Shown piece after piece: positions 4,623-38,010 of a stretch of 38,010 bases of DNA (its first letter is position 1; every line of letters starts with the position of its first letter). The notes beneath the pieces were generated by a model. It did not search any database. It saw only the letters and a list, made by a program, of their open reading frames with translations, and was not told where the DNA came from. The DNA comes from a virus, in IMG/VR virus record IMGVR_UViG_3300012931_000010, positions 1 to 38,010 of that record, one strand, 5' to 3'. The translations under genes were made by a program, and so were the position numbers.

Positions 4623-6335
4623 ATGCCTATGACAACTACGAGCACACTACCATCACCAGTGCAGCAAAGCTTCAATGCTAAGCTTCTTAGTGTGCCTACT
4701 CCGAATTTTATATTTAATTTGGCTGCATTAAAGCGTAAGATGCCAGCTAACGGGGGAAATACGCTCAGACAAAGGCGTTACAATCAATTAAACGCAGCCC
4801 TCGTTCCATTGGGAAATGCGGGAGTTACACCACCAGCGCAACAATTAACCGCTGTCGATATTGACGCTAAGATAAGTTTTTATGGCACTTTCATCCAATT
4901 GAACGAGCAGGTAAACTAGTTGCCTGCTATAAATCCGCTCTGATTGACTTGGAACTCTGACCGGGTAAAGCCGAAGACAACAAGGGCCAAGTGTCATGAG
5001 TCCATGGAAGAATAATTACGACAATGCAAATTACGAATTTCATTAAACAAACGAAGGCGCAAATCGAGTATATCTTGAGTAACTGGTTTAGTACCTGCCG
5101 CTCCTCTATGCATTCCAGTTTGTTTATATGTTTCTCGCATTTTAAGCATTATTTCGATTTCCTTTTTCTTGCATTGAGAGAAAGGGTATATAAGTTCGCA
5201 TATATGCGTAACAAGTTCTCCATGGATTATCCATCTGTAGACATCTTTACGGGAATTATTAGGAAGTTGTTTCCTTGTATATTTGCTAATACATCCATCA
5301 AATGTTTTTTGAAGCCAATTAATAAGGTTTTTAGACGTATTTGTGACTTCGATATTTGTTTGGTAGTAGGGAACTCCTTTTTTGCTCTTGCTAAAATTTC
5401 CGATATAGATACTTCCTTCGCCATCAATAATACCTGCGAGGTAAGCAATATCTTCGATGGAGTAGTCTTTTCTTATGTACGATCTATATTTCATAATTTA
5501 TCCTTTTATTTGGTATGTGTATACACATTATACGTAAGAAAGAACATGATGTACAGGCTGACAGACTTAGGCGAGTGGACACCGAAAGGTGAAGCGAAAG
5601 TCGGGACTGTATAGAAATATACAGAGCAGGGAATAACAAGACCTGCCGCCAGAAATGGTCATATAAGTAACAGATTGAACCTTACAGGCACAAGATGCAC
5701 CTTTAAATGAGGCTGCAATTCGTCTTGGTGTTTCACTGCGTTTGACAGAAGATACACTTACCAGAGATATGCTTGCAGCAACTGCAGGACAAATTAACTG
5801 CGTAGGCGGTGTCAACGGAGACAACCCTACTGAGATCACACTCTCCGATGTAGAATCGGTAACAACCACTTTGTTGTCAAACAATGCTTATACCATTCTT
5901 GATAACATAGAAGGGGAGAATCGTTTCGGCACAGCTCCCGTCAGGGATTCCTATTTGGCATTTACTCATACCAATATGACGGGACAATTATCAAATGTGC
6001 AAGGATTTATTCATAAGAATAACTATCCTTCTCAATCTAATATTGCACGTTCAGAATGGGGCAGTATTGGCAACTTGAGATTCTATGTAACCTCAAATGG
6101 GTCCTATACTGAAGCTGCTTCTGCTGCAGGTGCAAGGGTCTACAATACCTTTGTAACAGGTATGGAAGCCTACTCATATATTGAGCAGGACCATATGAGT
6201 GCCACCTTTATTTATCGTCCAGCTATCTATGATGGGCCATTGGCTCTCAATTGCACAGTTGGCTATAAATTCGGTGCATGCCCTCGTCTCTTGAATGATC
6301 TTTGGTTGTTCAACTTACGTTCAACAGTAGCTTAA
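4623..6335 (+). CDS. Major capsid protein, N4-gp56-like, split by a group I intron (join 4623-4912, 5678-6335)
   Basis: The coat protein that forms the icosahedral head. Exon 1 (4623-4912) encodes 96 residues plus two bases. The typical coat-protein N-terminus has L-P-S-P-V-Q-Q, R-Q-R-R-Y-N-Q-L and S-F-Y-G-T-F-I-Q-L-N-E-Q. Without splicing translation stops at 4917-4919. Exon 2 (5678-6335) continues in frame across codon 97 (GT|A, Val), giving V-T-L-Q-A-Q-D-A-P-L-N-E-A-A-I-R-L-G, as expected for the family. The spliced product has 315 residues. GAGG lies before ATG 4623. It follows the scaffold gene. The gene is non-functional unless the intron is removed from the RNA. Confidence 0.85.
4913..5677 (+). 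ncRNA. Group I self-splicing intron in the MCP gene
   Basis: A 765-nt intervening sequence. The end of exon 1, AGCAGGT (4906-4912), pairs with the guide GCCTGCT (4922-4928), forming P1 with the diagnostic U-G wobble at the 5' splice site. The first exon-2 bases AAC (5678-5680) pair with GTT (4919-4921) as P10. The intron ends in G (5677). Near the 3' end are GAAA-capped stems, CACC-GAAA-GGTG and CTGTATA-GAAA-TATACAG, then a GCAGG/CCTGC stem. I could not assign P3 and P7 by hand, so the subgroup is open. Confidence 0.85.
4994..5494 (-). CDS. LAGLIDADG homing endonuclease, antisense within the intron
   Basis: A 166-residue protein with a single LAGLIDADG motif (L-A-G-I-I-D-G-E-G-S-I-Y-I, near residues 19-31). 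Single-motif enzymes of this family act as homodimers that cut an intronless allele, so that repair copies the intron in. The rest fits the fold: the I-E-V-T-N-T segment and a basic K-K-K-E-I-E-I helix. The gene is encoded opposite to the intron and capsid gene, with AAGGAT before its own ATG. It cannot be translated from the capsid pre-mRNA and needs a leftward transcript. Confidence 0.88.
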   Translation of the reverse strand: MKYRSYIRKDYSIEDIAYLAGIIDGEGSIYIGNFSKSKKGVPYYQTNIEVTNTSKNLINWLQKTFDGCISKYTRKQLPNNSRKDVYRWIIHGELVTHICELIYPFSQCKKKEIEIMLKMRETYKQTGMHRGAAGTKPVTQDILDLRLRLFNEIRNLHCRNYSSMDS

Positions 6336-31516: not shown

Positions 31517-31661
31517 TTCTCTCTTTACTTTTTATAAGAGTTTATTTACACTATGTACATTTGAAATAACACTTATGCGCATGAAGTTTTCGCCGACAGA
31601 TTACACACAAGTAACACTAACCAAACGTACCAACAAGAAAATAAACCTGTTAGCCAGCTAA
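31503..31661 (+). CDS. Candidate small protein
   Basis: A 52-residue frame starting inside the palindrome (M-S-S-S-N-S-L-F) and ending in the first direct repeat. It has a hydrophobic middle and a basic C-terminal half (L-T-K-R-T-N-K-K-I). GGAAGAAG upstream is a weak site. It may be fortuitous. Confidence 0.3.
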   Translation: MSSSNSLFTFYKSLFTLCTFEITLMRMKFSPTDYTQVTLTKRTNKKINLLAS

Positions 31662-31713
31662 CATAACTAACATAACAGTAGATACCAGCTAGCTAACATA
31701 ACTAACATAACAG
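31656..31713. repeat. Two 23-bp direct repeats upstream of the initiator-like gene
   Basis: The unit that starts AGCTAACATAACTAACATAA occurs at 31656-31678 and 31691-31713, spaced 35 bp start to start. Each copy contains the smaller motif CTAACATAA twice. The second copy runs into the ribosome binding site of the gene at 31721. This is iteron-like. It is too short and too few for CRISPR. Confidence 0.7.
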
Positions 31714-31720
31714 GAGATAA

Positions 31721-33019
31721 ATGTACACTAACATAGCAAAAAATCAAGCACCAAATAAAAATAAAATCATCGATGAAGTAATAAGAAAGACTGATTTAAA
31801 TGCAGATGGTCTTTATGAGTTACTTACTGACCATGCTGCGACAAAACGTGAAAGAGTTATTGCATACATTATCCATCAGTTATTATTCTATAAAAATAGA
31901 TTTTATGAATCTGAAATTACCATAGCTGAACGCATGAAGGTAAGTCGTAGGCAAGTTTCAAGGGTTATTCAAAAGCTTCTATCGCTTGGTGTTATAGCAC
32001 GTAAACGCAGAATAAATACATCGAATATGTATACCATTAACCCTGAGATGAAAACCCCTTCTATTGTAGAAAGGTTTGGTGGTCTTATACCATCGTTAAG
32101 AGGTATATTACATCTATCACTTTTACTGTCATTAACGGTGGGTATGACATGGTGTCAAAAACGACCAGAGAAGCCTATTGCGGAAAATGTCTCACAATAT
32201 TTAAATAATGATCTTGATTCTATTAAATTTCTTACTTCTTATACTCCCTCTGACGGGTGTAAGGGCAAAAAGTTGATCTCAAAAGAGTCAACAAAGGACC
32301 GAATACCACAAGATCCTGTCAAAGTTCGTAGGAACATAGTAGAGCACTACAAAGTAAGGGAACTATACCCTATGTTAGACGAATATGGCCAATGTCTTGC
32401 AGTTATTGGTCATATGTCACCCTATGAAGCCTGTTATTTGGCACTATACACCAAGGAAATCTTGCTCAGTTCGTTCGTTATTGTCATGGCCAATACAGAG
32501 TACTTAAAAACCAAAATAAAGAATCCTAAGGCATATGTGATAGGTATTATAAACAAGGTGTCATCAACCTGTGGGTATAAACCTGATATAACTTTCCTTG
32601 AGAGTATACGAGATCACTTCAAAGTCGATAGTACTTGGAGAAACTTATCCTACCAAGAACATTCCCTTTTGATGCAACGCTTAAAGAAGTATTTTGAAGA
32701 TTATAGACACCTTCAAGGACAATGCTTACAAACAAGAAAAGAAACCTTCAAAGATAAGGAACAGCAACAAGCGCAAGAGCGTATCTTAAAAGCACGAACA
32801 AACTCACACTCAGTATATTATACAGGGCCTGTATTAGATCAAAGAGAATCACTTAAGCAAACTTATGCTTCAATTAATCGTTCTTCTTCCCTTAAGAAAG
32901 AATCTTCTTCCGAACCCCCTCAGATCATTCTGCCGCAGCCCCCCAAAGCTCCAAAGTTCGAATCTTCTAAGGGTAATATATTTTTGGATATGTTCCCTGT
33001 ACCCGAGTTTATGAAATAA
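31721..33019 (+). CDS. Winged-helix replication-initiator-like protein
   Basis: A 432-residue protein. Residues about 55-105 form a winged HTH typical of phage/plasmid replication initiators (I-T-I-A-E-R-M-K-V-S-R-R-Q-V-S-R-V-I, then L-S-L-G-V-I-A-R-K-R-R). A hydrophobic stretch follows near 125-145 (L-H-L-S-L-L-L-S-L-T-V-G). The C-terminus is Gln/Lys-rich and ends in a Pro/Ser-rich tail. AGGAG lies inside the upstream direct repeat. The repeats before it and the phased AT repeats after it support origin recognition. The exact family is unknown. Confidence 0.65.
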   Translation: MYTNIAKNQAPNKNKIIDEVIRKTDLNADGLYELLTDHAATKRERVIAYIIHQLLFYKNRFYESEITIAERMKVSRRQVSRVIQKLLSLGVIARKRRINTSNMYTINPEMKTPSIVERFGGLIPSLRGILHLSLLLSLTVGMTWCQKRPEKPIAENVSQYLNNDLDSIKFLTSYTPSDGCKGKKLISKESTKDRIPQDPVKVRRNIVEHYKVRELYPMLDEYGQCLAVIGHMSPYEACYLALYTKEILLSSFVIVMANTEYLKTKIKNPKAYVIGIINKVSSTCGYKPDITFLESIRDHFKVDSTWRNLSYQEHSLLMQRLKKYFEDYRHLQGQCLQTRKETFKDKEQQQAQERILKARTNSHSVYYTGPVLDQRESLKQTYASINRSSSLKKESSSEPPQIILPQPPKAPKFESSKGNIFLDMFPVPEFMK

Positions 33020-36766: not shown

Positions 36767-36840
36767 GGCCTAGTAGCTCCAGATGGTAGAGCACCAGACA
36801 ATTTCACTGGAGGGCGTTGGTTCGAGTCCAACCTAGGCCT
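36767..36840 (+). tRNA. tRNA-like gene with an atypical anticodon loop
   Basis: A 74-nt cloverleaf. The acceptor stem GGCCTAG pairs with CTAGGCC, the D arm is GCTC/GAGC with GGTA in the loop, and the T arm is GTTGG-TTCGAGT-CCAAC. The anticodon arm CCAGA-CAATTTC-ACTGG has a mismatch next to the loop. Position 33 is A instead of the near-universal U, giving a formal anticodon ATT (which would read AAU, Asn). No CCA is encoded and the discriminator is T. It may be degenerate, or fold with a 9-nt loop. The amino acid is uncertain. Confidence 0.75.
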
Positions 36841-37887: not shown

Positions 37888-38010
37888 CTGTGCCTTTCTT
37901 TATTATTAACAATAACATTGCGTTAAGTATTACACCATTTTATTATTGGAGTGTATAAACTAAGGAGTAGTGATGATATTTCCTCAATTATCGAATATGT
38001 ACCTTGATGA
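37888..38010. repeat. Terminal direct repeat, right copy (same as 1-123)
   Basis: An exact copy of bases 1-123, including the portal leader and first codons. See the left copy for interpretation. The portal fragment here is not a separate gene. Confidence 0.95.

Follow-up and report, generated by a model that had tools for sequence, protein, structure and literature searches.

Relatives of the phage analysed here carry, within their major capsid gene, a minute intron that has splice signals but no ribozyme, and that probably borrows the catalytic core of a neighbouring group I intron. We propose that in these relatives a single group I ribozyme splices in cis both its own intron and this core-less satellite, a mini-intron about 30 nt long, which occurs at two sites in the gene and is held by a tether helix that is re-aimed to whichever core comes next (at codon 97, 105 or 117). 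We regard this proposal as likely, and are slightly more confident, to the point of considering it very likely, of the explanation as a whole, in which the window intron and the mini-intron are accounted for by one core that would perform two excisions in the relatives. For the phage itself, the evidence supports a capsid gene split by a group I intron that would splice itself.

The window, by which we mean the entire 38,010-base stretch of phage DNA that was analysed, has identical 123-bp direct repeats at its ends (1-123 and 37888-38010) and hence represents a complete phage genome. Joining bases 4623-4912 to 5678-6335 gives an open frame of 315 amino acids, the product of which aligns colinearly along residues 1-315 with some 50 uninterrupted IMG/VR capsid proteins (67-72% identity). 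Its match in PHROG is 1357, 'major head protein' (9.9e-33). The preliminary description had pointed to N4-gp56-like coat proteins for comparison; the assignment as a major head protein is clear, whereas the N4-gp56-like label is weakly supported, the score for Pfam Phage_capsid_4 falling under the cut-off. No second capsid copy was found in the complete record, and the intact coat gene elsewhere that would have spoken against an interrupted gene was thus searched for and is absent from this genome. Elsewhere in the window, a tRNA-Asn gene with anticodon ATT in place of the usual GTT lies at 36767-36840 (+), just downstream of the terminase gene, and a 35-nt AT-rich repeat is present in two tandem copies at 31652-31721, immediately preceding the gene at 31721.

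Table 1. Elements of the split capsid gene and of the intron within it (window coordinates).
Feature	Position	Strand	Basis
Major capsid gene, exon 1 (codons 1-96 plus two bases of codon 97)	4623..4912	+	Colinear with uninterrupted relatives
Site of the mini-intron in relatives (codon 88/89 region); no insert in the window	4881..4896	+	Comparison with relatives
P1 hairpin, AGCAGGT (4906-4912) with GCCTGCT (4922-4928), 7 bp	4906..4928	+	U4912.G4922 wobble
Group I intron, 765 nt	4913..5677	+	U.G at 5′ site, terminal G, covariation, covariance model
P10 5′ strand GTT, partner AAC 5678-5680	4919..4921	+	Read directly
P3 5′ strand CCGCTC, partner GAGTGG 5573-5578	4935..4940	+	Covariation, double changes in 6/6 pairs
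P4 (CTTG 4948-4951 / CAAG 4981-4984), with P5 inside (4956-4958 / 4975-4977)	4948..4984	+	Covariation alignment
P6 5′ strand GCC, partner GGC 5556-5558	4986..4988	+	Double changes in 3/3 pairs
LAGLIDADG homing-endonuclease gene, 166 aa, motif YLAGIIDGEG, in P6 loop	4994..5494	-	Pfam, PHROG
RBS-like AAAAGGAT, upstream of endonuclease start	5500..5507	-	Read from sequence
Predicted sigma-70-like promoter TGTACA-17-TATAAT for the endonuclease gene	5527..5555	-	Promoter scoring
P7 (GACTT 5564-5568 / AAGTC 5598-5602), with P8 inside (CACC 5580-5583 / GGTG 5588-5591)	5564..5602	+	100% of cells paired, both
P9 hairpin CTGTATA-GAAA-TATACAG	5607..5624	+	Covariation alignment
Major capsid gene, exon 2 (remainder of codon 97 through the stop)	5678..6335	+	Frame, homology

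The preliminary description had already proposed a group I intron in this gene, and its account of the splice sites is borne out. Exon 1 alone runs into a TAG at 4917-4919, the P1 pairing with its U-G wobble (4912/4922), the complementarity of AAC at 5678 to GTT at 4919 and the final G at 5677 can be read directly from the sequence, so that the coordinates 4913-5677 are exact to the base, and the frame is restored across codon 97. The group I assignment likewise stands, since P3-P9, including the P7 pseudoknot, are backed by covariation over 21 related introns. These were assembled in alignment A1, which combines the window core with 20 compact introns over about 195 positions; almost all of these introns come from the same capsid gene, at other sites or in other copies. 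The P3-P9 structure pairs in 94.9% of its cells compared with 69.0% after shuffling, a level reached in 0 of 500 shuffles, with 182 double-change (compensatory) cells against 51.7 when shuffled; when partners were slid by one base as a control, pairing fell below 50%. P7 is paired in every sequence, its middle C-G being swapped to G-C in four of them. A covariance model built from the 20 other capsid introns with the window left out (R2) matches the window at 4939-5021 (32.5 bits, E 8e-7) and 5494-5673 (80.2 bits, E 2e-18), and a search of the whole window genome with R2 returned nothing beyond these two intron halves.

Where the preliminary description went astray, besides the N4-gp56 label, was in naming the Rfam model RF00028 as the test of the intron: this model has no match on the window, either at the gathering score or at E<=10, and none at the gathering score on 11 relatives. 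The compact, endonuclease-free intron of one relative, L002, scores 27.9 bits with RF00028 (E 2e-5), which is its sole match among 4,227 families and lies under the gathering score of 50. RF00028 is unusable as a test for these capsid introns. This is a limit of the catalogue model; reaching its gathering score is no defining trait of group I introns.

About 0.5 kb separates the two core halves and is occupied by an endonuclease gene on the opposite strand that the preliminary description, correct about the intron itself, had overlooked. Its product passes the Pfam cut-offs for LAGLIDADG_3 (26.0 bits, cut-off 22.5) and LAGLIDADG_1 (26.5 bits, cut-off 23.1) and matches phrog_5046 (5e-21). When homologous ORFs in introns of this capsid gene were identified by phmmer with the window protein as query, 42 of 43 proved to be antisense. 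The endonuclease is probably transcribed from its own antisense promoter: the upstream sequences of the 42 antisense homologues have a mean promoter score of 7.9, against 6.0 for shuffled sequence (of 12), although the number of promoter-like sites in the region is not above chance. The enzyme would render the intron mobile into intron-less capsid genes. Group I introns in the nuclear rDNA of the slime mould Didymium also carry a homing-endonuclease gene on the opposite strand (PMC9548176), but these are eukaryotic rDNA introns with enzymes of the His-Cys family, whereas here a LAGLIDADG gene resides in a phage, and antisense orientation is the rule in the intron family of the window. We found no report of antisense endonuclease genes in phage introns in the literature searched. 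The antisense endonuclease is thus unusual, while the window intron is otherwise of a known type.

Related capsid genes are a hot spot for introns, being interrupted at no fewer than 10 sites, often several per gene, at codons ~27-30, 39, 53, 80, 97, 105, 117, 144-147, 172, 181-190, 221-224 and 261-274. The same intron family also occurs in P22-like coat genes, with three introns in L209, two in L218, and a further case in GenBank MW202674; L209 and L218 read as P22-like coat genes from their sequences. The introns of L209 (6060-6985, minus strand) and L218 (3692-4467) are compact, and some have a P2 hairpin. In MW202674 (16569-18084; L232, 2193-3708), the P22 coat gene is annotated as two genes and the intron between them, which scores 136.9 bits with R2, is unannotated. 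Since these capsid introns fall under the Rfam threshold, similar split capsid genes are probably misannotated, MW202674 being an example. The contigs that carry some capsid relatives (L229, L230 and L231) have been binned into genomes of Simkaniaceae and Lokiarchaeota, and L004, L005 and L031 have, upstream of the intact gene and beside a tRNA-like sequence, another capsid-like match that is partial (38-42% identity).

In 53 distinct relatives, codons 88 and 89 of the capsid gene are separated by a frame-breaking insert of 28-54 nt. The window phage has the ribozyme and lacks this insert; its nearest relatives, L001 (capsid exon 2 96% identical) and L002 (80%), possess it. All 53 inserts end in G and contain a stop codon when read through, and their lengths fall 13/18/22 into the three residue classes modulo 3. 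The exon end UACGGU pairs with GCCGUA in the insert to form a P1 (P1a) with a U.G at the junction, and L219 shows a compensatory change (TATGGT/GCCATA). Where loci were retrieved with the pattern TTTACGGT...GTGCCGTA, the P1a pairing is partly built in; in the roughly 16 loci retrieved through capsid homology it is independent of the search pattern. P10, the tether and the terminal G are unaffected by this pattern. P10 is formed by the bases directly 5′ of the guide, which pair with the first bases of the downstream exon in 52 of the 53 (ACC/GGT in 34, ACT/AGT in 9, ACG/CGT in 5, ACA/TGT in 3 and CAA/TTG in 1), so that the third base of codon 89 covaries with its partner. With 28-54 nt, the insert is too short for P3-P8 and has no catalytic core; hence it is not an ordinary group I intron, and its anatomy suggests that it would work like one with a borrowed core. 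Placements of the codon-88/89 inserts from a spliced dynamic-programming alignment with a minimum intron of 150 nt were wrong and were discarded.

A second mini-intron site was observed at codon 81 in a divergent capsid clade, in four phages (L233, L290, L251 and L262). These mini-introns also have a U.G P1, a P10 (UGCCGA/UCGGCA, UGCAGG/CCUGUG) and a terminal G, and their P1 shows compensation (GTCGAT/GTCGAC compared with GTGGAT/GTCCAC). The example in L233, on the same contig as L210, is 47 nt long and ends in G.

The mini-intron lies 26-90 bases upstream of a ribozyme-bearing intron, and its tail is complementary to the exon directly 5′ of the P1 of that next core-bearing intron, with no spacer. 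The target of the tail depends on which intron comes next: codons 92-94 where it is the intron at 97, CAAAATCAG where it is at 105 and GTCTTGGT where it is at 117. Among the 40 loci for which all three segments are known, the tail fits best to the segment before its own next intron in 38. In the codon-97 class, tether pairs score -9.8 kcal/mol with their own partner and -4.5 kcal/mol with exchanged partners (0 of 10,000 permutations), and exchange of partners in the 105 class reaches the observed total in 0 of 10,000 permutations; owing to the similarity of their exons, the five loci of the 117 class pair equally well with exchanged partners. At the codon-81 site, an exact adjacent tether is present in L233 and L290, is weak in L251 and is absent from L262. 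When P1a, P10 and the tether were combined in an alignment of 44 distinct sequences (A2), 97.3% of cells were paired compared with 77.4% in shuffled controls (0 of 500), with 141 double-change cells against 34.2 after shuffling. The predicted centroid fold of L002 has P1a, the tether, P1b (the P1 of the core intron) and P3 as expected (z -4.5). Many 97-site introns accompanied by a mini-intron (L024, L030, L033, L048, L074, L082 and others) have a conserved GTTCTTTGAAATTTCTTGGTTTTG in the P1b loop, a sequence absent from L001, L002, L032 and L079.

Mini-intron and core intron are also associated in their occurrence: the mini-intron was found with a downstream core in 53 cases and without one in none, while 49 loci have neither and nine, including the window and L210 (which has a mini-intron at another site), have the core only. 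The search for mini-introns ran regardless of what lay downstream, so the absence of mini-introns with no core intron after them is informative. An intact capsid gene elsewhere was found in none of 12 records tested, 11 of which have the mini-intron and eight of which are 33-40 kb in size. A sequence-tract account of mini-intron loss in the window was unsupported, identity to L001 being 81% over codons 1-88 and 77% over codons 89-97.

From the anatomy, covariation, association and reading frame described above, we infer both splicing reactions, their order and their action in cis. In the window, the capsid pre-mRNA would fold the ribozyme (P3-P9) from both ends of the insert, and P1 would present the 5′ site after U4912 to attack by guanosine; P10 and the terminal G5677 would define the 3′ site, and joining of the exons would yield the 315-residue capsid protein. 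In the relatives, P1a is followed by two or three bases, the tether, P1b, UUAAA and P3. Because this order of P1a, tether, P1b and P3 corresponds to the P1-P2-P2.1-P3 of an ordinary group I intron, the tether would set P1a at the usual place of P1. The core would therefore cleave at P1a first, joining codon 88 to codon 89 by means of its P10 (P10a) and the terminal G of the mini-intron, and would then dock P1b and excise itself; the mini-intron would have to leave first since the reverse order removes the catalyst. Skipping of the micro-exon, with codon 88 joined to codon 98, was rejected, as the mini-intron interrupts the gene in phase 0 and the downstream introns do so in phase 2, so that skipping shifts the frame.

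The mini-intron could alternatively be spliced in trans, by another or a freed intron, the adjacent core not acting in cis, and excision by group I ribozymes in trans is indeed chemically possible (PMC4094466). Yet the target of the tail switches from 97 to 105 to 117 along with the nearest downstream core, and mini-introns without a core intron were never found, which makes this route very unlikely. We consider it less likely still that the insert is the decaying remnant of a full intron at codon 88/89 that is no longer removed, leaving the capsid gene broken. The presence of P1 and P10 in the absence of a core is what such decay might leave behind, but the 53 unique copies include several in near-complete phage genomes without a second capsid gene, P10 and the tether still covary where a remnant would drift, every insert ends exactly in G, and codons 89-97 are conserved and in frame with the downstream exon.

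Bypassing of the mini-intron by ribosomes in the style of phage T4 gene 60, without RNA splicing, would be compatible with its length, as 28-54 nt is within the size range of known translational bypass gaps. However, bypass requires matching take-off and landing codons, and here take-off would be from GGT while the inserts end in AAG, CTG, ATG, TAG, TTG and others, never in GGN; it would also leave the U.G in P1, the P10 covariation, the terminal G and the pairing with the flank of the next intron's P1 unexplained, and is in our judgement extremely improbable. Just as little probability attaches to the idea that 4913-5677 is an unspliced endonuclease insertion, with two proteins forming the capsid. 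In its favour, each exon is an open frame and splicing is deduced from sequence, but uninterrupted relatives make a single protein, the first listed start in exon 2 is a TTG at 5742, some 20 codons in, and the ribozyme core is under strong selection for pairing.

A group I core that serves both itself and a mini-intron, as we propose for the relatives, can be compared with several known systems. In mycobacteriophage LittleE, splicing of a capsid-gene intron in vivo was demonstrated by RT-PCR and protein sequencing (PMC3706429); this too is a group-I-like intron of about 0.8 kb with an endonuclease gene in a major capsid gene, but it belongs to another host and capsid and is a single intron without a mini-intron partner. 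The structural gene orf142 of Staphylococcus phage Twort likewise contains several group I introns, two of them separated by an exon of 23 nt (PMC10136302). In Twort, each of these two introns has a full core and the exon between them can be skipped, whereas in the relatives studied here the upstream intron is core-less and micro-exon skipping breaks the frame. Engineered trans-excision ribozymes remove up to 28 nt by means of P1, P9.0 and P10, and engineered spliceozymes remove 100 nt (PMC4094466), so the chemistry for removal of the mini-intron is available. In these constructs, too, a group I core removes a segment other than itself through P1 and P10/3′-site recognition, but they act in trans, in contrast to the phage arrangement, which is natural and apparently operates in cis via the tether helix. 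The short group III introns of Euglena plastids have kept splice-site elements but no ribozyme core, which they lost, and depend on help for splicing; they differ in being derived from group II introns and in having a helper that is not known to be adjacent. Natural core-less, helper-dependent introns are, to our knowledge, exemplified on the group II side only, by these group III introns, and we found no core-less or neighbour-served natural group I intron in the literature searched (open-licence papers).

Since the gene concerned encodes the major capsid protein of a phage, splicing must be very efficient. No more than 100 nt separates the donor from the dependent intron, and the shortest of each (about 230 and 30 nt) fit on one in-vitro transcript. 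If its splicing is confirmed, a mini-intron served by the core of a neighbouring group I intron would be categorically new. An intron reduced to its splice signals and served by the ribozyme of a neighbour would represent the step that models for the origin of the spliceosome need, in which one catalyst has several dependents.
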